Shown piece after piece: positions 23,204-52,965 of a DNA stretch of 61,170 nucleotides. The stretch lies in IMG/VR virus record IMGVR_UViG_3300025131_008672, positions 1 to 61,170 of that record; one strand, 5' to 3'. The notes below the pieces were generated by a model. The model saw only the letters and a program-made list of their open reading frames with translations. It was not told the origin of the DNA and did not search any database. The first letter of the stretch is position 1; each line of letters opens with the position of its first letter. Origin of the DNA: a virus. The translations under genes were made by a program, and so were the position numbers.

Positions 23204-24703
23204 TTATTCTTCAACTCTAAATTTGAAGGTTTGTGGCTGTTCTTGCCAGTCTCCTATACTATCATTATAGTAGGATAATCCAACGGCATACATGTAGCCT
23301 GACTCCAAAAGGGCCATGTCCAGATCAAAATAGTTACCGTCCTTGTCATAGGACAAATAGGTACTATAGCGAGATCCCGTTCCATATGGTATAGCGTTAT
23401 AGTTATCTGTTACTCTACGGATATTATAGGAAGCACTCGGTATAATTTGAGTTGGACTATTCGTCGTAGAAACAACGTATAATGTGGGGCTCCAATTTTT
23501 ATCTCTTACGAAAAAGCGGAATCGAGCTTTATCTTGCCGTGAATATTTCTTCTTAAGGTTGGTGCAGCTTGTGACTCGATTAAAAGTGGGGGCAGCCTCA
23601 TATGTGGGCATCGCTTGAGGATAAAAGGAGCCCGTAAAATATTGGAGGGATGAGCCGCTATGCCAGACATCGTAAACCTTCTGTAGGGGTGTGGCTGCCG
23701 AAGTAAGCGCTACCTGGCATGTGTAAATACCTGTGCTAACATTGCTCGCTGTGGCATTAATTATGCCATTCTGTATTAGAAGTTTTGCGTCTGTTGGTGT
23801 AGTGGCGGACCCAGAATAAAAAGATACACGAATACTCCCCGTACCAACGTTGGGAATATTAACAAGACGTCCACGAATATAATTGTAAAGGTAAAGACGA
23901 TTTAAATTATCTTCTGCTGGGGCTAACGAACTAGAATAGAAAAAGTTTTCTCTATCATCTGAAAGGCGCGAATCCCAGCGAGCTTCCAGAACGGGACGCT
24001 TAAAGAAGAATTCAGTAGAGCGTGCGAAGAACATCTTCGTATAATAAGACTGTGTGGCGCCTACCGTATTTTGAATAACACTTCCGCTATCAGTTCCAAG
24101 AGAACTGGAGAAGTATGCTTCTTGGCTTGCGGTAAGTCGAATTCCTACCCCGTAATTCGTTTGCGTCCCATTAATCCACCGCTCCACCAGGTTTGTAACA
24201 TTTAATTCGATGTTTTCAAATCCTTGTGGGAAATTAATATTATAGTTGTTCACCGTTCTATAGTCGCCCCCTACGGTGGTCCAGGAGGACGTACTGTTGG
24301 GTTTAATCCAATTAGCGCTTCCCAAATCTTGGTAGTTGGCCAGGTCCAGGCCGGTACCTTCGCTCCATGGGCGAGAAACCGGCGCCACAATAAGATTAAA
24401 ATTTTGAGGCAATGTATAGGGAGTCCGAGCATTATGCATCTTAAGAAAAAAGGAAACACTTCCACTGGCCCCCAATCGGCCGGCGGTGCGGTCTGCGGAA
24501 ATCTGTGTCACAGGAAAGTCGATCAGAATACGAGATAACTCCTGCGATTGTCCGTTGGAGCCTGAATCTTGCCCATATATAGAAAATACTTCTAGCGCGT
24601 CCGCATACCCCATATTAGAACCAGTACCGCGGGTCGTCAGATTGCTTTCAAATGCGCTCGCAATTGTAGTATCAGCGCTAGCAGTATAACGAAGAATAGC
24701 CAT
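23204..24703 (-). CDS. Virion structural protein, DNRLRE-like N-terminal domain
   Basis: 499 residues. The first ~220 resemble the DNRLRE/CBM96-type beta fold: DTTIASAFESNLTTRGTG, then a conserved RILIDFPV strand, a Y-x-LG-like ASGSVSFFLKM strand, and an NVTNLVERWINGTQTNYGVGI closing strand. This fold is common in secreted and adhesive proteins. The C-terminal half is beta-rich without a named motif. It is coupled by TAATG to the gp6-like wedge gene, so it is probably part of the baseplate periphery, linking the wedge to the giant protein encoded next. Confidence 0.72.
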   Translation of the reverse strand: MAILRYTASADTTIASAFESNLTTRGTGSNMGYADALEVFSIYGQDSGSNGQSQELSRILIDFPVTQISADRTAGRLGASGSVSFFLKMHNARTPYTLPQNFNLIVAPVSRPWSEGTGLDLANYQDLGSANWIKPNSTSSWTTVGGDYRTVNNYNINFPQGFENIELNVTNLVERWINGTQTNYGVGIRLTASQEAYFSSSLGTDSGSVIQNTVGATQSYYTKMFFARSTEFFFKRPVLEARWDSRLSDDRENFFYSSSLAPAEDNLNRLYLYNYIRGRLVNIPNVGTGSIRVSFYSGSATTPTDAKLLIQNGIINATASNVSTGIYTCQVALTSAATPLQKVYDVWHSGSSLQYFTGSFYPQAMPTYEAAPTFNRVTSCTNLKKKYSRQDKARFRFFVRDKNWSPTLYVVSTTNSPTQIIPSASYNIRRVTDNYNAIPYGTGSRYSTYLSYDKDGNYFDLDMALLESGYMYAVGLSYYNDSIGDWQEQPQTFKFRVEE

Positions 24704-26505
24704 TAGCGGATAGAACCTTTAATGTCAACATTAGGAAACTTAAGTTCAAAAATCATATTTTTCTCGGCAATAATGCGCATCCCATCAGCAGATAAATTTT
24801 TGACAAAATCATAACTTACATCTGAATAGGAGGCGCCCATTTGTCGCACCACACGCAAATCTCGTACATCAATTATTCCGTCTACTTTTTGGAGGATTTT
24901 ATGAAAGGCTGTTATATGAATACTTTCGCCAATAGAGTATTGGTGTCTCAACAAAAAATCGGACAAGGCCTTGTTTGCCTTATTAATAACCGTAAATCTA
25001 TTACTGCCAGGATCTATACTTATACTATATCTCAGTCCAAAGTTTACTATAGCACCATCTAAAATATCTACATTATCATTAATCATTCTATATTGTGCAA
25101 GCCACGTTTTTAAATTATTTTTGAGAGTAACGTTTGCCGCCACGAGCTTACCGCTTGTGCTCTCTGAGACTACATAAATGTTGAGGTTTCGCTTGAGTTC
25201 ATCAAAATCCCTGACAACCGTGGCGCGCTTAATGGCTCCAAATTTGGCCGGGAGTCCATAGCACAGGGCTTCATAATCTTGTGCAGTTACTGCGCGATTT
25301 TGGGTAGCGAAGAAGCCAAATACTCGCTGTTTAATTTCGTCCGCGGAAGGAAGCGATACATCTCCCACGAAAGGCGCCTCATTGGTTACCTCTAAGGAGC
25401 CCATCACAGTCGTCCGAGAGCCGGCATCTAGAGCTCCCTGATTTGGAAATTTAAATATCGGCTTACTCAAATTAATTATTGAGTTGACGCCTGCATTAGC
25501 ATCGCGCGTAGTGTTCACTCGATACCCAATTCGTAGTAGAGTATTAGCCGGAGCAATTCCAAATTTATCACTACTAATAAGCTTCGTAGGATCAAAACCA
25601 GTATCTGTGGTATAATTTCGCCCGGTAAGATCTAAAACCAAATTCGAAGGATCCAGAACAGCTTCGGAGAGAAGCTCTGAGTCCGATCCATAACCAAATT
25701 GCAAATATGTTCGATCTCCTTGGTGCTCCACCACAAAGCGCCGAGATACCGGATATGCCTTCATTATATTCTTAACAGTATTGTTAGTCGCGGTATCACT
25801 ATTGCGTACGGCTTTATAGATAGTATTCTGTGATAAATTGTCTACCTCATAATATTCGTGCCCCTCACTATCAGTCACGGTGGTCACTTCTGCAATATTA
25901 GCGGTTTCCAAATCAACTCGCAAAAAACGCTGAAAGGATCCCACCGTCGTCTCCTGAAAGCCGGCGCGGCCAGAGACAGCGCGACCTTGGGCGCGGACTA
26001 CATATGTGGTAGGTGCACCACCAAGACCTGCAGCAATCGTCCCGGCTACCACTTGATTGGTCGTTTGCGCGAAGTCCACATCATCAACTAAGGTATAAGA
26101 GCCCCCGTCCACAGAAGAAAATGTTGAGCCGGCGCGCAGAACGGGGGCGTATGCAAGATCCGGCCCTAAAGCGCTCCCATCTGCGGGAAGTTCAATATAA
26201 AAAGTCAAAGCACCATAAGAAGAAGGGCTGGCATCTATTTTAAACCCCATCTGTCGGGCTAAACGTACTACATTTGTATATTCAATAGCACTATCTAAAA
26301 AGCTTTCATTAGTTTGATAATCAAGATAAAATGAAAGGATATCGCCGATATAGGCTACTGTATCCAACATTAGAGAACCAAAAGATGCTTCATTAAAATC
26401 CCGATAAGTGTTGGGATAATAACGTTTAGCATAATTCTCTAGATCTTTGCGAATTGAATCAAAATCGCGGCTTGTATAATCAATAGGTATTAATTTTTTA
26501 CTCAT
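24703..26505 (-). CDS. 6: Baseplate wedge protein, gp6-like / baseplate J family
   Basis: 600 residues, about the size of T4 gp6. The N-terminus IPIDYTSRDFDSIRKDLENY and the following DFNEASFGSLMLDTVAYIGD and YLDYQTNESFLDSA segments are typical of T4-superfamily gp6. A baseplate-J-like region continues through AVTAQDYEALCYGLP. In T4, gp6 dimers form the continuous ring of the baseplate wedge and clamp onto gp25 and gp7. Here it lies directly downstream of gp25, as expected, and upstream of large appendage proteins. Confidence 0.88.
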   Translation of the reverse strand: MSKKLIPIDYTSRDFDSIRKDLENYAKRYYPNTYRDFNEASFGSLMLDTVAYIGDILSFYLDYQTNESFLDSAIEYTNVVRLARQMGFKIDASPSSYGALTFYIELPADGSALGPDLAYAPVLRAGSTFSSVDGGSYTLVDDVDFAQTTNQVVAGTIAAGLGGAPTTYVVRAQGRAVSGRAGFQETTVGSFQRFLRVDLETANIAEVTTVTDSEGHEYYEVDNLSQNTIYKAVRNSDTATNNTVKNIMKAYPVSRRFVVEHQGDRTYLQFGYGSDSELLSEAVLDPSNLVLDLTGRNYTTDTGFDPTKLISSDKFGIAPANTLLRIGYRVNTTRDANAGVNSIINLSKPIFKFPNQGALDAGSRTTVMGSLEVTNEAPFVGDVSLPSADEIKQRVFGFFATQNRAVTAQDYEALCYGLPAKFGAIKRATVVRDFDELKRNLNIYVVSESTSGKLVAANVTLKNNLKTWLAQYRMINDNVDILDGAIVNFGLRYSISIDPGSNRFTVINKANKALSDFLLRHQYSIGESIHITAFHKILQKVDGIIDVRDLRVVRQMGASYSDVSYDFVKNLSADGMRIIAEKNMIFELKFPNVDIKGSIR

Positions 26506-38113: not shown

Positions 38114-38959
38114 TTATTCTTCTGAGACTGCTCTTCCTTTAAGAAGTTCCCAGTCTTTCTCGGGCCTAACTTCAAGATTTTTTTCCCACACTCCTTGCAG
38201 AACTGTAGGATTTAGTTCGTTCATTCTAGCAAAATATAGTAATGCATTTAAGTCTTTAGGAAAACATGAGCCCCCGAAACCTTTGAGGCCGTCTGGGCCC
38301 GGAGTCGAAAGATGCGTTGGGCCGATCCGTTGATCATATAAAGCATACTCTACCACCTTATCATAATCCACCCCGATTGGCTCACAAATCTGTTTAAACT
38401 CATTCGCAAAACTTACCTTGGTCGCCAAAAAACAATTAATGAAATATTTTACTGATTCGGCTGTGTTGGATCCTGTTTTCACGATAGGGGTTTTCTGAAA
38501 TACTTTACGGAACATATTTTTAATGATGGTGGTGGCGGGACGAGGGCCTCCAATAATAATCCTATTTTGATTTTTAAAATCATCAATATAATTGGCTTCC
38601 GTGAGAAATTCTGGATTAAAAACAATGTCAACATTGGCGCACTCCTCATTAAGTCGCGCGGTCGTACCCGGTACCACTGTTGATTTAATGACCACGATAT
38701 TTCCTAAATCAAAGGAATTAATGGCGCGTACAGCCCCCTCCAAAATCGATAAATCGCAAGATCCATCTCGTTTCATCGGCGTAGGAAGACATGTGAAAAC
38801 AATATGGGCTTTCGCACAGACATCCTCTAGAGATGAACATGTAGATACATTGGCTTTAAACTTATCATACGTTTCAATAGTAAAATGATTCTTCATACCT
38901 TCACGAATAGCTGTTCCCACAAACCCTTGACCGATTATGCCAATTACTTCTTTAGTCAT
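38114..38959 (-). CDS. UDP-glucose/GDP-mannose dehydrogenase, short form
   Basis: 281 residues. The start is ATG 38959 behind a perfect AAGGAGG (38965-38971); a longer upstream reading is not needed. The NAD-binding motif IGIIGQGFVG is at residues 6-15. Active-site residues of the UDP-glucose dehydrogenase family are present: K171 and N175 in KYFINCFLA, and catalytic C232 in GFGGSCFPKD. These enzymes oxidise a nucleotide sugar to its uronate with two NAD+. The protein stops about 50 residues after C232, so the C-terminal UDP-binding domain of the usual ~390-450-residue enzyme is largely missing. It may act with a partner, such as the full-length copy at 46090-47250, or on another substrate. 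Confidence 0.85.
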   Translation of the reverse strand: MTKEVIGIIGQGFVGTAIREGMKNHFTIETYDKFKANVSTCSSLEDVCAKAHIVFTCLPTPMKRDGSCDLSILEGAVRAINSFDLGNIVVIKSTVVPGTTARLNEECANVDIVFNPEFLTEANYIDDFKNQNRIIIGGPRPATTIIKNMFRKVFQKTPIVKTGSNTAESVKYFINCFLATKVSFANEFKQICEPIGVDYDKVVEYALYDQRIGPTHLSTPGPDGLKGFGGSCFPKDLNALLYFARMNELNPTVLQGVWEKNLEVRPEKDWELLKGRAVSEE

Positions 38960-39836
38960 GGTGACCTCCTTCAATATTAAAACACCGGTGAATTCCGACC
39001 GGAATATCAATTGCAGCATCCCACCCATACTTTGACAATGACTCTGTATTAGCACGGGTTGTCGCCACCTCTCCGGGGCGTTCGGCCACATAATCAAACT
39101 CTACATCATGATATACTTGAACTATCTCTCTTACTTCATTAAGAGAAATGTTCTCTCCCGTTCCTACATCAAAAACAGCCCCATCAAAGCGGTCATTATA
39201 TTCCATACAATGAATATTCGCAGCTACTACGTCACTAACGTGAATCATATCACGTCGCTGTTCGCCATCGCCTGTAATAAACGGAGTGTCGCCCTCCAAA
39301 ATGGCGCGGCGCCAATTCGCGACTGCTGTAGCGTACGGTCCGTCAGCGCGCTGGTCTTCTGAATACACGTTGAAATATCTTAAACATACCGTATCTAGCC
39401 CATATACCTCGGAATATATGCCGCACTCTTTCTCGGTAATTAGCTTTTGTAGTGCATAGGGGTTTGTCGGACCATCACCGTTCCCCATCACCGACGATGA
39501 CGAAGAATAAATTACTCTTTTAACCGACTTACATTTGCGAGCGAAATTTAAAAGAACCGAGCCGGCCATTACATTGTTGTACATGGTCTCCACAGGACTT
39601 TCTAAACACAAGCCTATCCGTGGCCAACAAGCTAAATGAAAAACATACTCGGGCTCAAAGTTAATATAATGGGGATGAAATGAGCCGTCAGTTCCTTCCG
39701 CCAAAGATGTGATAACATCATGAGAAACGATATCCTTTAAATCTATTCCCATCACTTCATGACCTTGAGCAATCAATTCGCCGTAAAGGCGAGAGCCAAT
39801 ATATCCTTTATGTCCTGTTACTAAGCATTTAGCCAT
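38952..39836 (-). CDS. NAD-dependent nucleotide-sugar epimerase/dehydratase (SDR)
   Basis: 294 residues, starting behind AGGAGG. It is an extended short-chain dehydrogenase: nucleotide motif VTGHKGYIGS near the N-terminus, SSSSSVMG active-site strand, the Y-x3-K catalytic pair in NPYALQK, and RYFNVYSEDQRADGPYA in the substrate region. Family members epimerise or dehydrate UDP-, GDP- or dTDP-sugars. The exact substrate cannot be read. It overlaps the short dehydrogenase by eight bases, so the two may act in sequence, for example oxidation followed by C4 epimerisation of a uronate. Confidence 0.82.
   Translation of the reverse strand: MAKCLVTGHKGYIGSRLYGELIAQGHEVMGIDLKDIVSHDVITSLAEGTDGSFHPHYINFEPEYVFHLACWPRIGLCLESPVETMYNNVMAGSVLLNFARKCKSVKRVIYSSSSSVMGNGDGPTNPYALQKLITEKECGIYSEVYGLDTVCLRYFNVYSEDQRADGPYATAVANWRRAILEGDTPFITGDGEQRRDMIHVSDVVAANIHCMEYNDRFDGAVFDVGTGENISLNEVREIVQVYHDVEFDYVAERPGEVATTRANTESLSKYGWDAAIDIPVGIHRCFNIEGGHHD
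38965..38971 (-). promoter_or_regulatory. Ribosome binding site deciding the start of the short dehydrogenase
   Basis: The minus strand reads AAGGAGG, five bases before the ATG at 38959. It lies within the last codons of the epimerase gene upstream, whose stop (38952) falls eight bases inside the dehydrogenase gene. This fixes the start at 38959 rather than at a start codon further upstream. Confidence 0.8.
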
Positions 39837-39848
39837 ATTATTACCTCC

Positions 39849-40553
39849 TTATTTCTTTTTAATAATACAAATATTGTTTTTGCGGCCGCCGTCATCGAGA
39901 ATGGTCCAATCCTGAATATTTTCTACCAGGTAGGCACATTCTGTCGGGGTCAGCGTCTTCGATAACCACTGCTTGGCGCGGTCCAGGACAGTAAACGCCT
40001 CTTCCAGAGTGTGTTCTTGAACATGGCGCGCCTTCATTAATCCTTTAGAATCCAGTTTATCCAAATTAACGTTAGTCTCCTCCCAATTATGGCCGCGACG
40101 AGACGCGGTGGAAAGATCCTCGACGATATAGAATCCCCCAGAATTTAAAAAGGGAAAAAGCGTCCCCAAACTAATCTGAATTGCGTCGGGCATATGGGCG
40201 CCGTCGTCAATAATATAATCATATCCAGTCAGACATGCTTCACCGCACCGCAAAAGGTCTTCGCGATGTAACTGATTGCCCCGAATAACATGAATGTCTA
40301 GTCCCTCTAACTCCGAAAGAGTAACCTCCTGGTCGGGCAGAAAAAAGGGATCCATACAATAAATCTCCCCTTGAGTAAAATATTCTTTCCACATCTTAGA
40401 CGAGCCACCTACTTTACCGGCTCCTATCTCTAATAAGCTTATGGGCTTCTCTTTTATTTCCTCAAATAGGGGGCCATAAACACGCTCGGTAAAAGTGTGA
40501 GTTGTCGCTTTGTCGGTACCATATTTGCGCCCTAATTTGGTTAACTCATGCAT
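39849..40553 (-). CDS. SAM-dependent O-methyltransferase, macrocin-type
   Basis: 234 residues. The pattern KYGTDKATTHTFTERVYGPLF, the SAM loop LLEIGAGKVGGSSKMW, the acidic site DPFF and the DYIIDDGAHMPD motif match the demethylmacrocin/sugar O-methyltransferase group, which methylates sugar hydroxyls and uses the DDG(S/A)H motif. In this context it probably O-methylates a glycan or nucleotide sugar. It starts eight bases inside the end of the GME-like gene, so the two are co-translated. Confidence 0.78.
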   Translation of the reverse strand: MHELTKLGRKYGTDKATTHTFTERVYGPLFEEIKEKPISLLEIGAGKVGGSSKMWKEYFTQGEIYCMDPFFLPDQEVTLSELEGLDIHVIRGNQLHREDLLRCGEACLTGYDYIIDDGAHMPDAIQISLGTLFPFLNSGGFYIVEDLSTASRRGHNWEETNVNLDKLDSKGLMKARHVQEHTLEEAFTVLDRAKQWLSKTLTPTECAYLVENIQDWTILDDGGRKNNICIIKKK

Positions 40554-41550
40554 TTTCTACCTGCTCTGCAATCCAAGCATATGTCTTTTCCATTCCACAC
40601 CGTAGAGCCTGTTGATAATCCCATCCCAGCTTCTCACGAATAAGAGTATTGTCGGAATTACGCCCTCGTACGCCCACCGGGGTTGGGAATCCATATTTGG
40701 CTTTGAAGCGTTCTCCATCAATATTATCAATTGTAAGACTCTTTCCGGAAATGTCAATTGCCATCTCAGCAAACTTATTGATGGCGATCATCTCTTCGGA
40801 TCCGATGTTCACGGGGCCCTCAAATGTAGGGTGGTCCATAAGGCGCCTGGTGGCCTCTATACACTCATCAATGTAGAGGAAGGACCTAGTTTGTAGGCCA
40901 TCCCCCCAAACTTCAATCTCGGCGCCCTCACGAGCTCTCGCGACCTTTCTACAGAAGGCGGCAGGAGCCTTCTCGCGGCCGCCGTCCCACGTGCCCAGAG
41001 GGCCAAAAATATTATGATAACGAGCTACCCGTATCGTAAGGCCATAATTGCGAGCAAAAGCAAACCATAAACGCTCACTGAATAATTTCTCCCATCCGTA
41101 TTCAGAATCCGGCTGGGCCGGATAGGCTGAATTTTCCGTACAGTTGGGATTGTCGGGATCCATTTGGTTGTGTTCCGGATACATGCACGCCGAAGAAGAG
41201 TAAAAGATTCGATTAACCTTCTTTTTAACACACTGTTCGGCAATATTGAGATTAATCATTGCCGAATTGTGCATGATGTCAGCATCATTCTCGCCGGTAA
41301 ATACGAATCCCGCGCCGCCCATATCTGCCGCAAATTGGTATATCTCATCGAGATCCTCGGTTACCACGCGATCGCACACTACCGGATTGCGCAAGTCGCC
41401 CTGTACAAATTCGTCTATCACCGTGGTGATGTCAAAAAACTCATGATATTTAAGATCGACAGCACGTACCCAATGACCTTCTTCTTTTAACCTTTTTGCC
41501 ATAGCGCCGCCAATAAATCCTCCAGCGCCACAGACTAATATTCTCTTCAT
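40546..41550 (-). CDS. gme: GDP-mannose 3,5-epimerase-like SDR enzyme
   Basis: 334 residues, matching GDP-D-mannose 3,5-epimerase along its length: GAGGFIGG (8-15), AADMGGAGFVFT, SSSACMYPE, YGWEKL, RYHNIFGPLGTWDGGREKAP, WGDGLQTRSFLYIDE and RGRNSDNTLIREKLGW. The residues aligned with the plant catalytic set, C122, K155 and K194, have spacings of 33 and 39, the same as C145/K178/K217 of the Arabidopsis enzyme; Y151 completes Y-x3-K. The enzyme converts GDP-D-mannose to GDP-L-galactose (and GDP-L-gulose) with bound NAD+. No GDP-mannose 4,6-dehydratase is nearby, so L-galactose rather than L-fucose is the likely product. Confidence 0.88.
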   Translation of the reverse strand: MKRILVCGAGGFIGGAMAKRLKEEGHWVRAVDLKYHEFFDITTVIDEFVQGDLRNPVVCDRVVTEDLDEIYQFAADMGGAGFVFTGENDADIMHNSAMINLNIAEQCVKKKVNRIFYSSSACMYPEHNQMDPDNPNCTENSAYPAQPDSEYGWEKLFSERLWFAFARNYGLTIRVARYHNIFGPLGTWDGGREKAPAAFCRKVARAREGAEIEVWGDGLQTRSFLYIDECIEATRRLMDHPTFEGPVNIGSEEMIAINKFAEMAIDISGKSLTIDNIDGERFKAKYGFPTPVGVRGRNSDNTLIREKLGWDYQQALRCGMEKTYAWIAEQVENA

Positions 41551-41551
41551 C

Positions 41552-42178
41552 TTAATCCTTCATAATAAATAAACTAGCGGGTTTGGAATGCTTACCGTCG
41601 CTCGTTTTACGTTCCACCCATTCGTACGTAACATCTAGGGTATCTAAAAAATTCTCCAGGTATTTTCTGCTCCACTCTGCGTATATACAGTTGTCGTGCT
41701 TATGAACAAAGTTAACACAATCATGACCCGCCAAAAAGTCCCGGAAAAAAGACACGATAAGGAGCTTATTCGTTACGCGCAACATTTCCTGGAGCAACAG
41801 GCGCGGGTCTTCCTTTTGATGATTTAAAACATCCAAACAGAGTATGCAGTCAAACTCTTCGTCTGCAAAATTTCCAAGATCGCGAAGGTCGCGATCGACT
41901 ACAGGAATATTTTTAAGTTCGCAGAATTTAATCAACTTGGGGGTTATTTCGGTCCCCAGATATCTGGCATCCGACGGATACCCACGATTATCTAGAACCT
42001 CTTTCATGCTTCCTGTACCGCAGCCTATGTCCAATACTGATTTCAGGCCCAGCTCTACAATCAGTGCACCCAACTCCTCTTTCCAGGGTTCCGGAGTGCC
42101 GCACCACCTTTGAAAATCTTTAAAGTTGCACGACTCTTGCCAAAAACGCAAGTGGGCATTTGTCTCGTTATCTGTCAT
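41552..42178 (-). CDS. Class I SAM-dependent methyltransferase
   Basis: 208 residues. The SAM-binding motif SVLDIGCGTGSMKEV lies near residues 47-61, the acidic ribose-binding site is GTEI, and motif IV is CILCLDVLNHQKEDP. The C-terminal part (KYLENFLDTLDVTYEWVERK) is typical of sugar or small-molecule methyltransferases. The substrate is unknown; the neighbours suggest a sugar. It overlaps the NAD synthetase by 11 bases upstream and is followed after one base by the GME-like gene, preceded there by AAGGA. Confidence 0.8.
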   Translation of the reverse strand: MTDNETNAHLRFWQESCNFKDFQRWCGTPEPWKEELGALIVELGLKSVLDIGCGTGSMKEVLDNRGYPSDARYLGTEITPKLIKFCELKNIPVVDRDLRDLGNFADEEFDCILCLDVLNHQKEDPRLLLQEMLRVTNKLLIVSFFRDFLAGHDCVNFVHKHDNCIYAEWSRKYLENFLDTLDVTYEWVERKTSDGKHSKPASLFIMKD

Positions 42179-42953
42179 CCGGAGTGTCCTTTACTAGATA
42201 ACATACAGGAGGTACTTCCAACTTATGGCGACTGGCCAGGTGCCTGCTTACATAAATTTGTAGAACCTCCTGTTGTCTTTCCGAAAGCATTTCGAAATCA
42301 GGACCATTCTGATCGTAATAATCAAGAGCCCACTCTAATTCTTCATATGTTGCCCCAATTTGCTCCTCATCAGACCTGTCATCCTCCCAGAGGCCGTCGG
42401 TAGGAGTGGCACTGATTATCTCTCCACTAATTCCCAAATGGTTCGCTAATTGCCTCACCTCACTCTTTAAAAGATCAGCGATGGGGCTGACATCCACTCC
42501 GCCATCTCCATATTTGGTAAAGAACCCAATTCCATAATCTTCTATTTTATTACCCGTACCTCCCACTAATAAATTATGAGTGTTCGCTATAGAATACAAA
42601 AGAGTCATTCGTAATCTAGAACGCGTGTTTACGAGGGCAAGATCAGAAAACTCTACATCTAAAGATTGGAACGTTTCATAAAGCTGGCTAAGGTCTATGG
42701 TCATAGAGGTTACATTCTCAAAGTTGTTTTTCAGCCACTGTATGTGCTTTTCAGCGCGGCTTACATGAGAGGGGGGTTGGTGAATAGGAAGAGCGACCAC
42801 CACTAGTTTGAGTCCCGTTAAAGCGCACAATGTTGACGTTACTGCCGAATCAATTCCCCCCGATACCCCAACAACGTAGCCCTCGGCGGACGCTGCCAAG
42901 GCCCGGTTCCGAAGCCACGCTATAATTGTAATACTCCCCCTTATATAGTCCAT
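42168..42953 (-). CDS. nadE: NAD+ synthetase, NadE-type
   Basis: 261 residues, the size of ammonia-dependent NAD+ synthetases without the glutaminase domain. The PP-loop is VGVSGGIDSAV (28-38). GGTGNKIEDY (131-140) and FFTKYGDGGVDVSPIADL (144-161) are NadE signatures, as is the acidic loop TDGLWEDDRSDEEQIGATYE. It adenylates and amidates deamido-NAD+ to NAD+. Within this island it could supply NAD+ to the dehydrogenases and epimerases. A counter-defence role against NAD+-depleting host systems is also possible. Closely related sugar-amidating ligases exist, but the motifs fit NadE better. Confidence 0.88.
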   Translation of the reverse strand: MDYIRGSITIIAWLRNRALAASAEGYVVGVSGGIDSAVTSTLCALTGLKLVVVALPIHQPPSHVSRAEKHIQWLKNNFENVTSMTIDLSQLYETFQSLDVEFSDLALVNTRSRLRMTLLYSIANTHNLLVGGTGNKIEDYGIGFFTKYGDGGVDVSPIADLLKSEVRQLANHLGISGEIISATPTDGLWEDDRSDEEQIGATYEELEWALDYYDQNGPDFEMLSERQQEVLQIYVSRHLASRHKLEVPPVCYLVKDTPDDR

Positions 42954-42957
42954 CTCT

Positions 42958-43797
42958 TTAGTCCCATCTAAACCAGCCAGATAGTGGTATCTGACTTAAG
43001 TTCTTGTTTTTGGCACCCTTCCAGGGGCGCCATGGTCCATATACTCCCACCTTCTTGGCGTCACTTAAAGCCGCGGCCCACCAGGATAGTGTACCATGTT
43101 CAAACAAAATATTGTTGAAACTTCTGATAAAATTAAAATCTTCGCCTACGGTGCGTCGCGTAACCTGTGGATTATATGGAGCAAATCCCTCTACAAGCTC
43201 ATTAAAATATTTAACAGAATCTTCGATGGGGACGCGGTCATCGGGGAGAGTGTTTACATGAAATTTCATCGCTTGCAGCTCTTCCGGTGTCACAAGCTCC
43301 CATGTAGGCATATCGGTTACAATATGAAATTCACTAAACTCAAACTGATCAATAGCTCTTTTATAGCTGTCTACGCGCGGCTTCGAATAAAACTCATTTT
43401 TCATAAAGAGGCGGTCACCCGTACGCATATGTAAAACCAAGGCAGAATCTTCCCGGACAACTGGAAGAGGAAACCAAGACTTAATCTTTTCTATATGATT
43501 TATATAAAATCTATAATCTTCAAAATATCCATTAAGATGGAAGTGGGCCCCTTTATAAATAGGGTCAAACATTTTTGTATAATTAGCATCTGAAACAGAT
43601 TGAAGCATGGTGGGCAGTCGGCCGGGCCAAAATTCAATACCCAGTGCCTCTAGGTCGGGGATTCCGTAATAATCAGGCGTGGGGGGAACCGCGTACGCGG
43701 TGGCGTCGTGATATTCAGCCAGCAAACGCGCTGCGCAGTACTGAAAAAGGTTATTCCCAAAGCCGTTCGTAAATTGTGTAGTAACCTGTGCTGTCAT
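42958..43797 (-). CDS. GT11-like (alpha-1,2-fucosyltransferase family) glycosyltransferase
   Basis: 279 residues. Family GT11 hallmarks are visible: GFGNNLFQYCAARLLA at 12-27 (family GGLGNQLFQYA), HFHLNGYFEDYRFY in the middle, VLHMRTGDR at 122-130 (H-x-R-x-GD), and GTLSWWAAALSDAKKV near the end. GT11 enzymes transfer L-fucose from GDP-L-fucose. L-galactose differs from L-fucose only by the C6 hydroxyl, and fucosyltransferases can use GDP-L-galactose. With a GME-like enzyme two genes downstream and no fucose pathway, an L-galactosyl donor is a reasonable inference. Soluble, no membrane segment. Confidence 0.82.
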   Translation of the reverse strand: MTAQVTTQFTNGFGNNLFQYCAARLLAEYHDATAYAVPPTPDYYGIPDLEALGIEFWPGRLPTMLQSVSDANYTKMFDPIYKGAHFHLNGYFEDYRFYINHIEKIKSWFPLPVVREDSALVLHMRTGDRLFMKNEFYSKPRVDSYKRAIDQFEFSEFHIVTDMPTWELVTPEELQAMKFHVNTLPDDRVPIEDSVKYFNELVEGFAPYNPQVTRRTVGEDFNFIRSFNNILFEHGTLSWWAAALSDAKKVGVYGPWRPWKGAKNKNLSQIPLSGWFRWD

Positions 43798-44501
43798 GTG
43801 TCCACTTTTTCAAACTCATAGCCAAAAGCTTCAATGTCTGCCTGTGAGCGCTCGCGGACGATTTCGACAAGATCGGGGGTATAATGAGAAGTATAGTGAG
43901 GCTCTGGGGTGCGAGTCTTACCCTGATGGTATCCAACGTGATTCTGGTGTGGTAATTCTAACTCTCCCACCCCTATCTTATCACAGACAAATTGAAAGTC
44001 TTTTTGGATATTTTCTACTCGGCCCACAAAGTCGACCATTAAAGCACCACTCTGATCGCTAATGTGTTCAATTTGATTTCGCATGTGCCACTTATCGTGC
44101 TGATATCCACTAATAGGCATCTCATAAGCGGCCCCGATCTGGCGCACAAAGTCCTCAAAACTAATTTCTCCGTCTTGTCCCTGCCAACCACGATCGGCCC
44201 AGCCAGTTCGCTGTCCGGTGCGCGTAAGCCAATGCCAGTTAGAAACATAGCGGTCCCACGGATTACGCACGAAACAAAACTTAAAAGTATTATTCCAAGC
44301 ATGAGATCCAACGACATGGCGCATAATCTGGGCGCGTGAAATCTTAAAATCAAACATGGCAAAGAGCGGAAGCGGAAGAATCGGATTTTTTATCATACTT
44401 GTCTTCTCGGTAATAAGTCCGCTCTCTTGATAGGGCTCAAAAGCTGTCATCATACTAGTTCCAGCAGCCTTAGGAACATGGATAAAGATACCTTTATACA
44501 T
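43794..44501 (-). CDS. Sulfotransferase, Sulfotransfer_2 type
   Basis: 235 residues. The PAPS 5'-phosphosulfate loop is IHVPKAAGTSMM (7-18) and the 3'-phosphate site is FVRNPWDRYVSNW (77-89, R79 and S87). The C-terminal helices (DKWHMRNQIEHISDQ, FVGRVENIQKDFQFVC) fit the carbohydrate sulfotransferase group. It would move sulfate from PAPS to a sugar hydroxyl. Animal relatives are Golgi membrane proteins; this one lacks an anchor and should be cytosolic. It overlaps both neighbours by four and eight bases. Confidence 0.87.
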   Translation of the reverse strand: MYKGIFIHVPKAAGTSMMTAFEPYQESGLITEKTSMIKNPILPLPLFAMFDFKISRAQIMRHVVGSHAWNNTFKFCFVRNPWDRYVSNWHWLTRTGQRTGWADRGWQGQDGEISFEDFVRQIGAAYEMPISGYQHDKWHMRNQIEHISDQSGALMVDFVGRVENIQKDFQFVCDKIGVGELELPHQNHVGYHQGKTRTPEPHYTSHYTPDLVEIVRERSQADIEAFGYEFEKVDT

Positions 44502-45198
44502 TTTCTCTCCTCAAAAATAGTAAATCGCCGGAGTTGCCGGGGCTCGACAGTTGTGGCACAGGACTGAAACCTTTAATATCAAAATAAGTGGTGGTTTCCT
44601 CTCGCGTCATGGAACCTTCATACATCATCTCCCCATATTCAATCCAAACAAGACGAATGCGGCGAAGATCTGCACCCATCCCGTCGAGGACATTCTTCTC
44701 GGCGCCTTGTACATCTATCCACGCCAAATCAATTTCTTTGGGGCCCCCTTTCATGCGGAGCCACGAATCAAATCGTTGAGTGGAGACTTCAATCGTTTCC
44801 TCTTTATTAAGGTGATATCCTTTTTTCAACGACGAAGACCCCGAATTACTTAATTCTTCTTCGTTATAAAGGGCACGATCGATCCAGTCGTATTTCTCTG
44901 GGGGTGCACCACCATCTGTCGCTTGATAGCTTTGATAGAAGCTCGCTGTTCCGTCGACGTCCGAAAGGGCCACTTCATATAAAAAAGCGCGCGGATCCTG
45001 AACATACCGCCGGAATGTCTTAATACACCGCGGATCAGGCTCAAAACAGTGTAGTTCCACCCCGGGAAAGGTTTCGAGAAAGCGAAGAGAATCTTCTCCG
45101 AAATGTGCACCGATTTCCACAATAACTGGATTATCCTTGCCTACAATCCGCTTGAACACGTCAAACTTGGGCCCATAATGTTTCATTACGCTCTGCAT
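44494..45198 (-). CDS. FkbM-family methyltransferase
   Basis: 234 residues. The SAM loop is NPVIVEIGAHFGEDSLRF (23-40) followed by ELHCFEPDPRCIKTFRRY. The FkbM signature LAWIDVQGAEKNVLDGM and the closing segment VWIEYGEMMYEG are present. FkbM enzymes O-methylate sugars and polyketides, and occur in capsule, LPS and flagellin glycan clusters. It starts at TAATG on the stop of the second FkbM-like gene, so the two are made together and may methylate different positions. Confidence 0.85.
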   Translation of the reverse strand: MQSVMKHYGPKFDVFKRIVGKDNPVIVEIGAHFGEDSLRFLETFPGVELHCFEPDPRCIKTFRRYVQDPRAFLYEVALSDVDGTASFYQSYQATDGGAPPEKYDWIDRALYNEEELSNSGSSSLKKGYHLNKEETIEVSTQRFDSWLRMKGGPKEIDLAWIDVQGAEKNVLDGMGADLRRIRLVWIEYGEMMYEGSMTREETTTYFDIKGFSPVPQLSSPGNSGDLLFLRRENV

Positions 45199-46089: not shown

Positions 46090-47250
46090 TTACGGGCGCC
46101 TTACTTCGTATAAGAACAGGTCACCATAAAGGGCCTGAACAGTTTCAATCACTTCTTGTACATCGGATATCAACACCTCATATCCCCCATAGGCAAGACC
46201 TACAGCAAACTCCAGCTGCTGCGACTCCTCGATCATGGTTGATCCTTCTTTATATGTGACGGATTCAAACCACACAGCAATTTTTTCACTATACGCGGTT
46301 TTATCATGACGCCCAAAAGCCACCACAGCTCCTTCGGGGGCTGGGTTGTTCTTAATATAGTCCTTCAGCTGAAACTGCAGGTGTTTCTTGTTCATCTCAT
46401 CGGTGGCCACAGAGATGTCAGCAGCCACATTGATATCAGATGCAAATATTCCTAACGCCCGATTATCGCGCGGGAAGCATGGACCACCATAACCAAAACC
46501 ATAACGCGTGAGCTTCTTACCGACCCGGCTATCTGCGCCGATGGCATCAAGAACTACCTGTGGTGATCCGCCTGCTTTCTTAACAATGTCGCCAACCATG
46601 TTGGTATACGCAATCTTGGTCGTCAAAAAACAGTTAAGAGAAATCTTTGTGATCTCAGCCTCTGTGGGACTCATGCGGCACACGCGCGGATTATTGTCAG
46701 TCATGCGCTCGTAAAGCTCTTCGAGGAGGTTACCAACCATTGGGTTGGCCTCTCCGATCAATATCATGTCGGGATTTTCTTGGTCGCGGATAATCGTTCC
46801 TTGGGCAATGAATTCTGGGTTGTAAGTGACTGTCCAATTGTACTCCTCAAGTCTCTTCCCAAGTTCTTCACAATATCCCGGCATAGTTGTGCAGTTCATT
46901 ACTAAATGCTTGGTTTCGTTTTGGGGACCCCGTTGCATCAAGTTGTCCACCAGCCCTTCAATCTGTGAATGATCGTATCGGCCATTCACGAGAGAGGGGG
47001 TCGCCACAATCACAAACACGATATTGGAGTGGGCAAGAGCTTTATCCAAATCTGTAGTGGCTTCGAAGTTCTTGCTCGCGGCAAGTCGGTTATTTACTCG
47101 CGCCTCCGAACTATTAAAACTTTTGTCATTGATGCTTTTAACATATGACTCGTCGATGTCTACTCCCACCACACGATAGCCAGCGCGGTCTAAGCTTAAG
47201 CTAAAACACAGCCCTAATTTACCAATCCCTATAACACCAATATTATCCAT
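46090..47250 (-). CDS. ugd: UDP-glucose/GDP-mannose dehydrogenase, full length
   Basis: 386 residues. The NAD motif is IGVIGIGKLG (4-13). Catalytic residues are K202 and N206 in TKISLNCFLT and C258 in GYGGPCFPRDN, and a C-terminal substrate-binding domain follows, unlike in the short paralogue at 38114-38959. It oxidises UDP-glucose to UDP-glucuronate, or GDP-mannose to GDP-mannuronate, using two NAD+. Either would give an acidic sugar for the island product. The middle and C-terminal sequence are divergent, so the substrate is uncertain. It overlaps the sulfotransferase-like gene upstream by eight bases. Confidence 0.86.
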   Translation of the reverse strand: MDNIGVIGIGKLGLCFSLSLDRAGYRVVGVDIDESYVKSINDKSFNSSEARVNNRLAASKNFEATTDLDKALAHSNIVFVIVATPSLVNGRYDHSQIEGLVDNLMQRGPQNETKHLVMNCTTMPGYCEELGKRLEEYNWTVTYNPEFIAQGTIIRDQENPDMILIGEANPMVGNLLEELYERMTDNNPRVCRMSPTEAEITKISLNCFLTTKIAYTNMVGDIVKKAGGSPQVVLDAIGADSRVGKKLTRYGFGYGGPCFPRDNRALGIFASDINVAADISVATDEMNKKHLQFQLKDYIKNNPAPEGAVVAFGRHDKTAYSEKIAVWFESVTYKEGSTMIEESQQLEFAVGLAYGGYEVLISDVQEVIETVQALYGDLFLYEVRRP

Positions 47251-49010: not shown

Positions 49011-49676
49011 TTATTGCCACCCAAAATATGCAAATTCTTTGGGAAACTTAGTACGCAAGTCTCTTTTAAGTTCATCAGTATAATATTCAGATTTCTTATC
49101 TCGGTTATAATTCCCCTCGTTAACGCGGATTTCGGTATTGACAATTTCTAGATGCGCGCAGACTTTATTGAGATCCTCTGTATAGGTAGCATACTGACCA
49201 ACGAAGTCAAACAGCGGCCGATCCTCTAAATGAGTAAGATAATATTGATCAATCAATTGATTATATTGGATTCTCTGTGTGAGGGTCTCTTTGCCTCCAA
49301 CATGGGTGGTAATAAAGTCTTCAAAACTAACATTAGTATCTAACGACCAGCGGCCGTTGAGTTGGCGATCGTAATTATATAATGAAATCAATAGATCATA
49401 TTTGTTGCGCACAAAAGTAAACTTATAATAATCATCCCAATTTTCTGCCACCTCTTTAAAATATTTAATCTTCTCATCTAGTGGGGCGCGCTTGTTGGAC
49501 AAGACTCCATCATCCAAGCCATTATTTTTTAGAAGTCTTACAATGGAGGACCCTCCTGTTTTGGCTACGTGCAAATAAAGAACTTTTTTTTCTTTAGAAA
49601 CAGTGAGAGGAGTCATTAGGTTAAGCCCACCTTCGTCCGGGGTGGTAAATCTTTTCATCAATTCTTCTTTGTTCAT
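49011..49676 (-). CDS. Sulfotransferase, Sulfotransfer_2 type
   Basis: 221 residues. The PAPS loop is LYLHVAKTGGSSIVRLL (33-49) and the 3'-phosphate site is FTFVRNKYDLLISLYNY (87-103, R90 and S98). Helical segments QRIQYNQLIDQYYL and DLNKVCAHLEIV follow, as in carbohydrate sulfotransferases. It is a second clear PAPS-dependent enzyme, so the glycan may be sulfated at more than one position. It is separated from the CgeB-like gene by a 33-base gap. It should be cytosolic. Confidence 0.85.
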   Translation of the reverse strand: MNKEELMKRFTTPDEGGLNLMTPLTVSKEKKVLYLHVAKTGGSSIVRLLKNNGLDDGVLSNKRAPLDEKIKYFKEVAENWDDYYKFTFVRNKYDLLISLYNYDRQLNGRWSLDTNVSFEDFITTHVGGKETLTQRIQYNQLIDQYYLTHLEDRPLFDFVGQYATYTEDLNKVCAHLEIVNTEIRVNEGNYNRDKKSEYYTDELKRDLRTKFPKEFAYFGWQ

Positions 49677-49680
49677 TAGC

Positions 49681-50577
49681 TTATTTCCTCATATTTTTAA
49701 CGCCCGGGGCATATTCTTGGATATGTCTTAAGGCGCCCTGGTCATGGTATCCTTCAACAACTGTTTTAAAGTCGTAAACAGTATATCCATAATGTATGAG
49801 AAAGAAAAGACTATTCAAGATATGGTCTCCCCACCTATACTTATAGATCCCTCCCGACTCGTTAAGGTCGTGATTCCACTGGATCCATTCAGGAGTTTTG
49901 AACAAACTAGTTTTAAACACATACGAGTCTGCGTACGTAAAGTTATGAAAATTTTTATCTGCTTCAGGATCGGTTAACAAATCTTGAATAAACTGGGCTT
50001 GGGGTGTAATATCGTGCCGGAGCAGGTAGGCCTTCAGGTAGTCCCATAAGCCGACCCGACAATCAAAGTTTCCTTGTGTAGGGGGCTTATCTTTAGTATA
50101 TGTAACCTTTAGGGCGCCGGCAGCTTTTTCCTGGTTCGCCATTACTTCAAAGAAATCGTAGGGAACTTCTTTAGTGAACCGAGCTTCATCATCAATAGTC
50201 ATGATATAGTCATATTTGTGCAACTCGGTGTTCGGGTACTTATAGAGGTTGTTAAAATAGTGACACATATGAAGATATCCTTTTCGTTGAATAGGAAAAC
50301 GATTGCGGACATACCATAACTCGTGTCGATTATAAAAAAGCTCATCCTCCTTCAAAAAGGGGGGTGTTTCATAGGGTATGGAACGAAAATGAATATTTGT
50401 GCTAATATTTGTCCAAATAAGTTGTCGATATTTCTCGGAATCGTAAATATCGTCAAAATAATGTACATACACAGGATAATCGTATCGATAATTCCATTTC
50501 TGCCATAGCGAATCCAAGCAAATAGGAAGACACTTGTTTCGTGACGATAGAATATTAATACATCCCTTGAGGCTCAT
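49681..50577 (-). CDS. GT15 (KRE2/MNT1)-like glycosyltransferase
   Basis: 298 residues resembling fungal alpha-1,2-mannosyltransferases of family GT15. Matching elements in order are RKGYLHMCHYFNN (family Y-x-x-MC-x-F), KYDYIMTIDDEARFTKEVPYD around D129-D130-E131 (fungal YDWYWRVEPDVKF), NFTYADSYVFKTSLF, and NESGGIYKYRWGDHILNSLF (fungal GGFYYERWGDAPVHS). The fungal ER/E before RWGD is replaced by Y here. GT15 enzymes use GDP-mannose. The fungal enzymes are Golgi membrane proteins, but this copy has no signal anchor. Assignment to the family is by pattern; the donor is inferred. Confidence 0.78.
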   Translation of the reverse strand: MSLKGCINILSSRNKCLPICLDSLWQKWNYRYDYPVYVHYFDDIYDSEKYRQLIWTNISTNIHFRSIPYETPPFLKEDELFYNRHELWYVRNRFPIQRKGYLHMCHYFNNLYKYPNTELHKYDYIMTIDDEARFTKEVPYDFFEVMANQEKAAGALKVTYTKDKPPTQGNFDCRVGLWDYLKAYLLRHDITPQAQFIQDLLTDPEADKNFHNFTYADSYVFKTSLFKTPEWIQWNHDLNESGGIYKYRWGDHILNSLFFLIHYGYTVYDFKTVVEGYHDQGALRHIQEYAPGVKNMRK

Positions 50578-51524
50578 TTCATAACCCCCAAACTATCAAG
50601 ATCATACTTGCTCACCCACTTAATATATTTTTCTAGGCCGCTGCGCAGAGAAAAGGCGTTTACGTGACCATAGTTCTTGATTTTGTCTACATTGCTCAAG
50701 AGCTTTTTCACCTCACCAGGGCGCGGGTCCATATGAACTATTGTAGAGCTTGATTTGGAAATGTCAATAATTTCTTGAGCAATAGCGTTAATAGTATGAT
50801 CTTGACCAAACCCGGTATTAACAATTTCACCAGATGGTATGTTCCGTGCAACCACATAGCCATTGACCGCATCCTCAATATATTGATAGTCGCGCGTCTG
50901 ATCCCCGTCGCCATAAACAATAAGAGGCTTTCCATCCAAGGCGCGGCGGACAAAGATGGCGATCACCGATCCATAACCGGAGGATTTCTGTCTAGGACCA
51001 AAAGTGTTAAAGTTACGAACTACGCGAACATCTGTGCGATACGTATGGTGGTAAGCAACACACAATGATTCGGCTGCTACCTTAGATGCTGCATAAGGAG
51101 ATTGAGGATTGACCGGAGAGCGTTCTGTGTGCTCTCCTGGGGATTCTCCATAAACCTCCGCCGAAGAAGCCATTGTCATGGACAGTTTACGATTTTGAGT
51201 GCACAAATCAAGGAGATTTTTGGTCCCCGTTAAATTAATTTTGAGTGTTTCGTCGGGGCGAATGATAGATTTTTCAACATGAATTTGTGCAGCTAAATGG
51301 AAAATATGGTCACAATCCCCGGTTAATTCTTTGAGACGATTGACATTTAAAATACTATCCTCCACAAAATAGAAATTTTTATTATTAAAGAGGCCTCGGA
51401 TATTATTAAGATTACCATTATAGAAATTGTCTAAGCAGACAACATCGTGGCCCTCTTTCACCAAACGCTCACATAAATGGGAGCCGATAAAACCAGCCCC
51501 TCCTGTTACAAGATATTTACTCAT
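50574..51524 (-). CDS. NAD-dependent nucleotide-sugar epimerase (SDR, GalE/WbpP-like)
   Basis: 316 residues. The start is set at ATG 51524 (MSKYLVTGGAG) because a GAGAAAAAG purine stretch precedes it and the N-terminal glycine motif follows at once; a longer frame upstream lacks support. GGAGFIGSHLCERL, the SSAEVYGESPGEH active-site strand and the YAASK pair (Y-x3-K) are clear, followed by RNFNTFGPRQKS and YGDGDQTRDYQYIEDAVNG. Typical products are UDP-galactose, UDP-galacturonate or related epimers. It overlaps the GT15-like gene by ATGA. Confidence 0.86.
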   Translation of the reverse strand: MSKYLVTGGAGFIGSHLCERLVKEGHDVVCLDNFYNGNLNNIRGLFNNKNFYFVEDSILNVNRLKELTGDCDHIFHLAAQIHVEKSIIRPDETLKINLTGTKNLLDLCTQNRKLSMTMASSAEVYGESPGEHTERSPVNPQSPYAASKVAAESLCVAYHHTYRTDVRVVRNFNTFGPRQKSSGYGSVIAIFVRRALDGKPLIVYGDGDQTRDYQYIEDAVNGYVVARNIPSGEIVNTGFGQDHTINAIAQEIIDISKSSSTIVHMDPRPGEVKKLLSNVDKIKNYGHVNAFSLRSGLEKYIKWVSKYDLDSLGVMK

Positions 51525-51553
51525 ACTTTTTCTCTTTTTCCTTTCCGGGCATC

Positions 51554-52261
51554 TCAATAACTCCAACAATGCTTATGAATCATCTGTGCCATTTCCACAG
51601 CTTGGGCATCCTTCATTTCACGTGTGAGACCATTATCCCCTTCAAATTCGCGGTGATGATATATCATAGCTTCTGGATTAAATTGATACTGGAATCCTTG
51701 ATGTGCAAGTCGAGCGATAAGCTCTTGACCACACCCACCATATCCCTCAAATCTTTCGGAGAACATCCCACATCCTAGCCAGTCTTTTCGATACATCGAA
51801 GTATTGTTCTCTACCAGGCGTTCGGTGATAGGGTGGAGTTTTCGGATGCCATATTTTAATAGCGTGTGCTTCATTTTAGGATGAAGCGAATCTTTGGGGT
51901 CATGGGAATTCCTATAGCCCCCAGTAAGGACGCCCCGTGTGGCTGATGCTTTGTGTGCGGCCACATATCCGGGCACCGGGAAGGAGTCGTCGTCCAAGAT
52001 GGCTATAATGGGCCGTGTGGTCTCTACAATCCCCATATTGCGTGCCTTTGCCAAACAATATTTCTCGTGTTCCAAGGTGTCGATCCATTTGATGGGGAAA
52101 GGCGCTTGATAAGAAGCTAACATTTCAACTGTATTGTCCGTTCCTCCGTCAATGGCGACAACCACTTCAAAATCCATATCAGTTTGTTTCTTAAAACAAT
52201 CTAAATTAAGCTTCAAAACGTCGCTTCGATTGTAAGTGGTGATAATAACCGAAAGAGACAC
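51554..52261 (-). CDS. GT2-family glycosyltransferase
   Basis: 235 residues from a GTG start at 52261 that overlaps the previous stop as TAGTG, with AGAGG eight bases upstream. An alternative TTG start 18 bases earlier is less likely. The GT-A fold signature VIITTYNRSDVLKLNL, VVVAIDGGTDNT and the DDD metal site (AILDDDSFPVPG) are present. The C-terminal GYGGCGQELIARLAHQGF matches the GalT-like acceptor element of GT2 enzymes with a GxE motif. It transfers a UDP- or GDP-sugar; donor unknown. Confidence 0.86.
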   Translation of the reverse strand: MSLSVIITTYNRSDVLKLNLDCFKKQTDMDFEVVVAIDGGTDNTVEMLASYQAPFPIKWIDTLEHEKYCLAKARNMGIVETTRPIIAILDDDSFPVPGYVAAHKASATRGVLTGGYRNSHDPKDSLHPKMKHTLLKYGIRKLHPITERLVENNTSMYRKDWLGCGMFSERFEGYGGCGQELIARLAHQGFQYQFNPEAMIYHHREFEGDNGLTREMKDAQAVEMAQMIHKHCWSY

Positions 52262-52965
52262 TAGAAATACCTCTGGCAAAAGGGCGCTGCGTGGGGGAGT
52301 GATAATCTCTGTTCTATACTAACAGCATAGTGATCAGACTTTAAATGATAGATCAAAGAAGAGGCATCGGGGAATACAGCCGATATAGCTTGTTCAGGAA
52401 GCTCTTGCACCATGAACTGCTCTTCCTCTATAGTTTTGGAGAGCGCCGGGCTCTCACAGTGCTTCAAGTCCGTTGTTTCCTGCAGGCGCTCAATGTTGGC
52501 TATCCACTTGTGTAGAAACTGTTGGGCTTTTTCAACATTTATAGCGCCGAAAAAGGAACCAATGTGACGTGAGAATCCCGGTCGGGTTCGGCTACATGCC
52601 ACCACATCCGCGTCCTTATCGATAAGCTGCTCAAAAGGGGCCACAAAAATACAATCGGAATCTATCATCAAAGTGGGCAACCCTGTGGCCTCTAAACAAC
52701 CCAGCAAGTATTTGGTTTTAGAGTAGGTATTAGCTTTCCAGCCGCTATCGTGAATTTGCGACGACTTAAAGTCTGCCCCTGTAGTTACTACCTCAACTTT
52801 GGGGAAATAATTAAAGTATTCAACAGTTTCCGACTGAAGTCCTGTGTCATAAACGTAAATCTTTTCTACATTTGAAAGATTAATATGCTCAAACAGCGAG
52901 TTAAGAAACAGTTTTCCAAATTGTGCGTACCCTTCGTTAATGACTGTTAATAAATTATACCTCAT
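52261..52965 (-). CDS. GT-A fold glycosyltransferase-like protein
   Basis: 234 residues. The N-terminus YNLLTVINEGYAQFGKLFLN and the metal-binding DSD motif in LMIDSDCIFVAPFEQL are those of GT8/GT-A nucleotide-diphospho-sugar transferases. SFFGAINVEKAQQFLHKW follows as in that fold, and E-E-E-QF in KTIEEEQFMV resembles the catalytic acid region. It is joined by ATGA to the next gene upstream and by TAGTG to the GT2 downstream. Sugar donor not determinable. Confidence 0.72.
   Translation of the reverse strand: MRYNLLTVINEGYAQFGKLFLNSLFEHINLSNVEKIYVYDTGLQSETVEYFNYFPKVEVVTTGADFKSSQIHDSGWKANTYSKTKYLLGCLEATGLPTLMIDSDCIFVAPFEQLIDKDADVVACSRTRPGFSRHIGSFFGAINVEKAQQFLHKWIANIERLQETTDLKHCESPALSKTIEEEQFMVQELPEQAISAVFPDASSLIYHLKSDHYAVSIEQRLSLPHAAPFCQRYF

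Follow-up and report, generated by a model that had tools for sequence, protein, structure and literature searches.

The gene at positions 42958-43797 of the viral record IMGVR_UViG_3300025131_008672 encodes a glycosyltransferase (GT) that, judging from its gene neighbourhoods, most likely takes as donor whatever GDP-L-sugar the neighbouring genes provide, in this case GDP-L-galactose. The stretch of DNA analysed (the window) is the entire record, a linear 61,170-base fragment from a larger phage genome. We put at roughly two in three the probability that the GT is a GT-B enzyme transferring an L-sugar from a GDP-L-sugar, in this phage GDP-L-galactose, to a glycan of the phage or host surface. 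The observations that carry this reading are the homology and fold of the GT, the identity of a nearby GDP-mannose 3,5-epimerase (GME) and, in sister phages, of GDP-fucose synthase (FCL), the swap of these donor modules beside the GT, a co-occurrence rule in complete cyanophage genomes and a sulfotransferase linked to GME. An earlier note on the window had raised the possibility of L-galactosyl transfer; genomic support for it comes from the mutual exclusion of GME and FCL and the slot they share, and further from the co-occurrence rule and the sulfotransferase that tracks GME.

The transferase is a divergent relative of GT11 fucosyltransferases

The GT gene, on the minus strand and with an ATG start, encodes 279 residues; it is part of a tightly packed minus-strand operon and shares 4 bp with the sulfotransferase gene upstream. 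Its relatives in IMG/VR number 29 at 24-65% identity, and 45 contigs carry the gene after a profile scan; the open reading frame is therefore not a chance one, and the earlier note was right to take it for a gene. Searches with the GT sequence found no match in Pfam (up to E 0.1) or NCBIfam and nothing in the PDB, the sole family-library match being PHROG 2644 'glycosyltransferase' (33.7 bits). Comparison by hhalign of the GT-family profile with a profile of PF01531-positive phage GT11s gave 99.5% (E 1e-22, 233 columns), that is, profile homology to accepted GT11 members. The best fold match of the structure model (pLDDT 93.5) was to viral GT11 proteins (E 7.5e-13), and its Foldseek matches among solved structures were AtFUT1, FUT8, NodZ and TibC; the model thus has a GT-B fold akin to that of solved members of the fucosyltransferase superfamily (GT11/23/37/65/68).

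The sequence features agree in part with those of the GT11 alpha-1,2-fucosyltransferases (PF01531; FutC, WbsJ, FUT2). In addition to the GT-B fold and the profile match, the GT shares with them an N-terminal FGNN/GNQMFQY motif, HxR-x-GD with its critical first Arg, and [NH]-[SG]-T-[FL]-x-WW; unlike them, it falls under the Pfam cut-off and has lost the second Arg of HxRRxD, and the GTs of the GME group have no GDP-fucose synthase nearby. The HxRRxD motif has a role in fucosyltransferases (PMC4202792, PMC8439653), its first Arg being reported as critical in WbsJ (PMC4202792). In the HMRTGD of the GT this Arg and the Asp are kept, but the full motif is not. The position of the second Arg is occupied by Ala or Thr in FCL-linked relatives as well, so its loss is not donor-specific. 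The label 'GT11-like' used in the earlier note thus stands at the superfamily level, on the profile, the fold and the PHROG match, and fails at the level of the Pfam GT11 family: the GT is best placed in the fucosyltransferase superfamily as a divergent member near GT11 rather than in GT11 itself.

GME replaces the fucose pathway beside the same transferase

The window encodes a GME, as the note had stated, although not adjacent to the GT, from which it is separated by two genes (1.4 kb). The protein scores 308 bits against the Arabidopsis enzyme, compared to 81 bits for the next-best family, and retains the catalytic Cys, YxxxK, the Lys and the Arg-containing VRGRNSDN segment, which places it in the GME family. 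The statement that the window holds neither GDP-mannose 4,6-dehydratase (GMD) nor fucose synthase also proved correct, all scores being far under the family cut-offs: across the 61 kb, the best GMD scores were 64 and 22 bits (cut-off 415), and the only fucose synthase score above 70 bits was that of GME itself (103, cut-off 500). Because the record is a fragment, whether fucose-pathway genes lie in other parts of the genome was tested on relatives instead.

We therefore searched for GME and FCL in the whole records of the 45 IMG/VR contigs that carry the GT (two scans). GME was present in 16 of them (among them L019, with only part of the gene, at the end of the contig), FCL in 17, both in none and neither in 12, a mutual exclusion with a nominal hypergeometric p of 5e-5. 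The FCL proteins of L006 and L012 score 270 and 250 bits against human GDP-L-fucose synthase, so that a misreading of FCL as the source of the swap was rejected; among solved structures FCL matched fucose synthases only, at the limits used, and the GMD next to the FCL of L006 scores 463 bits, above the cut-off.

GME and FCL-GMD take each other's place next to the GT, within an island that is otherwise homologous. Contigs of both types share an upstream GT15-like gene and other transferases, along with small downstream genes, and differ in the inner cassette, which typically reads FkbM methyltransferase, sulfotransferase, GT, [NadE, methyltransferases], GME, SDR in the GME type and SDR, C-methyltransferase, a 262-residue protein, GT, FCL, GMD, SDR in the FCL type. 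With no gene in between, the GT adjoins GME in L005 and L018 and adjoins FCL in L006, L012, L014, L068 and L069; the relatives beside GMD-FCL include close ones, at 53-59% identity. On a GT tree, whose deep order is poorly resolved, the GME-linked transferases fall into three distinct clades (one with the window, L001, L067, L002, L003 and L005, a second with L018 and L070, and a third, distant one around L021-L028), and the donor modules have therefore been exchanged more than once.

Three positions of the GT that lie within or close to motif I and the C-terminal motif, 126, 132 and 233, hold Thr/Met/Glu in each of the eight core GME-linked transferases and mostly Ala/Tyr/Gln in the FCL-linked ones. 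They were not called as specificity residues, given exceptions (see below) and too few independent pairs. In the cellular genomes searched, only distant matches to the GT were found (at most 29% identity over most of the query), and no host or donor lineage could be identified from them. As for control loci anchored on UDP-xylose synthase (UXS), only three were found.

Complete cyanophage genomes link GT11 to GME or fucose synthase

GME is common in marine cyanophages (37 records), although its presence in a cyanophage was noted only once in the literature searched (PMC9602691). Since GME-anchored viral loci have a GT11-superfamily gene within the DNA examined in only 35 of 80 cases, GME is not always accompanied by such a gene nearby; complete genomes are the better test. 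We compared 14 cyanophages with GME and 14 without, genomes that are not independent of one another and whose controls were unmatched for glycan-island size. All 14 GME genomes carry a PF01531 GT11 above the cut-off, and 13 of them are without fucose synthase; the GMD-like SDR of Bellamy and SynMITS9220M01 scores 164 bits, well below the GMD cut-off. Twelve of the GME-negative genomes have neither GT11 nor fucose synthase, while P-SSM2 and ACG-2014f, the only two with GT11, are also the only two with fucose synthase. In this genome set, GT11 thus occurs in every genome with GME or FCL and in no genome with neither (16/16 versus 0/12, nominal p 3e-8). The picture is unchanged when viewed from GT11: among the matches listed (first 60 records), distinct phages carry GME or FCL, with phage B23 and a 23-kb fragment as possible exceptions.

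The GT11 gene overlaps or directly follows GME in S-8S55, S-CAM9, S-PRM1, Bellamy and SynMITS9220M01. The first four of these resemble the window in that the two genes are adjacent or in one island, with no fucose synthase in the genome. Their transferases differ from the GT of the window, to which they are only remotely related (18% identity in the profile alignment), in that they contain HxRRGD and count as canonical PF01531 members; they are annotated merely as GT11, glycosyltransferase or alpha-1,2-fucosyltransferase.

A sulfotransferase tracks GME

The sulfotransferase encoded directly upstream of the GT has intact segments for binding 3'-phosphoadenosine 5'-phosphosulfate (PAPS), PKxxGTS and RNPWDRYxSNW, as judged from alignment. 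An orthologue is encoded on the upstream side of the GT in 8/8 core GME contigs (directly adjoining it in seven and one gene away in L018) and in 0/14 core FCL contigs; any sulfotransferase homologue within the DNA examined was seen in 8/8 and 1/14, respectively. L-galactose carries a 6-OH that L-fucose lacks, and a sulfotransferase tied to GME is therefore what L-galactose transfer predicts.

Proposed donor and mechanism

From these data we infer the donor, mechanism, acceptor, linkage and sulfation site along the following lines. The GME of the window would convert GDP-mannose into GDP-L-galactose, the donor for the GT. The GT, a putative inverting, metal-independent GT-B enzyme and divergent relative of GT11 alpha-1,2-fucosyltransferases, would move L-galactose onto a phage- or host-surface glycan that the island's remaining transferases build, and the upstream sulfotransferase would then sulfate the product, plausibly at the 6-OH of L-galactose. 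In sister phages, the same GT beside GMD and fucose synthase would transfer L-fucose. The chemistry itself is established, since fucosyltransferases of the superfamily use GDP-L-galactose both in vitro and in the mur1 plant (PMC8787198).

Evidence against this proposal and alternative explanations

Several observations limit the case for the use of GDP-L-galactose by the GT, or weigh against it. The match to PF01531 (GT11) reaches only 12.1 bits over 37 C-terminal positions, below the cut-off of 23.9, and the second Arg of HxRRxD is replaced by Thr. The absence of a fucose pathway covers the 61-kb fragment only, the full genome being longer; the viral contigs are likewise fragmentary, which makes gene absence weak evidence there, and the phages are related, so that nominal p-values overstate independence. 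Independent GME/FCL pairs on the GT tree number only two to three. The transferases of L012 and L014 have GME-type residues at positions 126, 132 and 233 despite an FCL neighbour, and one enzyme type may therefore accept both donors. Among the 14 GME cyanophages, S-SCSM1 is the sole one with GMD, FCL and GME together, and exclusivity is thus not absolute. Lastly, an unannotated GT-A-like protein (52261-52965) with a DSDC motif tracks GME, its gene being present in 7 GME contigs versus 0 FCL contigs, and could itself be the L-galactosyl enzyme.

If so, another transferase of the island, such as this one, adds L-galactose and the GT is unrelated to the GME/FCL module. However, within the DNA examined the gene is missing from the GME contigs L002, L005, L018 and L070, many contigs have GME or FCL immediately beside the GT, and it is the GT that comes from a superfamily using GDP-L-sugars; of the three alternatives we consider this the least probable, by a little. 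Hardly more credible is that the GT draws on another product of GME or another GDP sugar, be it GDP-L-gulose, GDP-D-altrose or GDP-mannose itself. GDP-L-gulose is a by-product of GME (PMC6678494), the title of a reference cited in PMC8787198 gives GDP-altrose as a product of GME, and an extra SDR gene (38952-39836) follows GME; but an SDR of this type also follows FCL-GMD and is thus not GME-specific, and L-galactose, which corresponds directly to L-fucose with a 6-hydroxy group, is accepted by fucosyltransferases (PMC8787198).

Somewhat less improbable, though still unlikely, is an ordinary fucosyltransferase that obtains GDP-L-fucose from the host or from genes outside the fragment, GME then serving another transferase. 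All characterised GT11 enzymes use GDP-L-fucose, to our knowledge, the record is a fragment, and the close relatives described above do sit beside GMD-FCL. On the other hand, none of the 45 GT contigs has both GME and FCL, and the absence of GT11 from the 12 complete cyanophages without either gene suggests that a host-supplied donor is insufficient. Transfer of L-galactose by the GT remains the reading that we favour.

Other genes of the glycan island

The features of the island are listed in Table 1.

Table 1. Annotated features of the window in and around the transferase gene.
Feature	Positions	Strand	Basis
GT11/FUT-superfamily glycosyltransferase, 279 aa, proposed GDP-L-galactose-dependent transferase	42958..43797	-	PHROG, relatives, fold, profile-profile comparison
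GT motif I, H123-M-R125-T126-G-D128, variant of HxRRxD	43414..43431	-	family alignment
GT C-terminal motif HGTLSWW, residues 234-240, counterpart of GT11 NSTFSWW	43078..43098	-	alignments/profile
GDP-mannose 3,5-epimerase (GME)	40546..41550	-	308 bits to Arabidopsis GME; catalytic residues
PAPS-dependent carbohydrate sulfotransferase (Sulfotransfer_2; PHROG galactose-3-O-sulfotransferase), directly upstream of GT	43794..44501	-	domain and PHROG
FkbM-type methyltransferase, in GME-type inner cassette	44494..45198	-	Pfam, neighbourhood comparison
NAD synthase family protein (NadE-like); among compared cassettes only in GME-type	42168..42953	-	family match
S-adenosylmethionine (SAM) methyltransferase between GT and GME	41552..42178	-	Pfam
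Methyltransferase-like protein	39849..40553	-	phrog_21658
SDR nucleotide-sugar epimerase (4-epimerase-like), after GME or FCL-GMD in both cassette types	38952..39836	-	family match
UDP-sugar 6-dehydrogenase (UGDH-like)	46090..47250	-	family match
UDP-glucuronate decarboxylase-like SDR (UDP-xylose synthase-like), not GMD	50574..51569	-	family match
GT15-like mannosyltransferase, flank common to GME- and FCL-type islands	49681..50577	-	family match
Second sulfotransferase (Sulfotransfer_2)	49011..49676	-	Pfam

The 262-residue protein of the FCL cassette (L017:9213-9998 and orthologues; MKVAVLITGQLRDYK...RPDNSMF) has no significant Pfam match. It is encoded upstream of the GT in 15/17 FCL contigs, mostly where GME contigs carry the sulfotransferase, and could be a transferase whose substrate is the fucosylated product. 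In some members of the distant clade (L024, L025, L079), the GT-A-like gene is a neighbour of the GT. The NAD synthase family gene recurs in GME islands, between or near transferases, both in the group of the window and in several cyanophages (S-SSM7 gp258, S-SCSM2R 242, Sf-FS3 222 and P-TIM68; L206, L207, L208, L210); its product could provide the NAD that the SDR and UGDH enzymes need, or form an amide on a uronic acid. The island also holds a second UGDH-like gene (38114-39097), which overlaps the SDR gene and whose N-terminal NAD-binding match is incomplete.

A wcaG cis-regulatory RNA (Rfam RF01761, 82.5 bits) was seen at L207:8214-8311, upstream of the GME island of S-SCSM2R, and is also annotated in S-SCSM1; none was found in the window. 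To the left of the glycan island, a single open reading frame encoding 3590 residues (12421-23193) lies near a baseplate wedge protein gene (24703-26505). Most large proteins tested in that region have no PHROG match, and the phage is therefore far from described myoviruses.

Relation to known systems and implications

Transfer of L-galactose by fucosyltransferases has precedents in Arabidopsis FUT1 (GT37) and in FUT8 (GT23), which share the superfamily and fold of the GT and transfer L-galactose in mur1 and in vitro (PMC8787198); there, L-galactose replaces missing fucose, whereas here GME appears to supply the GT. GDP-L-galactose is the natural donor of Arabidopsis Cdi, the dedicated, putative GT8 L-galactosyltransferase of rhamnogalacturonan II (PMC12168206), but this enzyme belongs to an unrelated CAZy family and acts on a plant pectin. 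No phage or bacterial L-galactosyltransferase is described in the literature searched. A phage GT dedicated to L-galactose would thus be new, the in-vitro promiscuity of fucosyltransferases being already known.

We know of very few enzymes for which L-galactose transfer is the natural job. Whether marine phages encode widespread natural L-galactosyltransferases on a fucosyltransferase fold, as swappable donor-transferase modules (GME, GT and sulfotransferase versus GMD-FCL and GT) that build sulfated L-galactose glycans instead of fucosylated ones, is in our estimation an evenly balanced question. The module swap provides matched close homologues with different predicted donors, pairs that are ideal for learning how the fucosyltransferase fold tells a 6-methyl from a 6-hydroxymethyl group.

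The annotation of these genes is also concerned. Most cyanophage GMEs bear the label 'UDP-glucose 4-epimerase' or 'nucleotide-sugar epimerase', and some GT11s beside them the label 'alpha-1,2-fucosyltransferase', in a set of complete genomes most of which are without fucose synthase; this suggests that many cyanophage genes called 'alpha-1,2-fucosyltransferase' and 'UDP-glucose 4-epimerase' are misnamed. Our analysis predicts that L-galactose, possibly sulfated, occurs in the phage-made glycans of the ocean.
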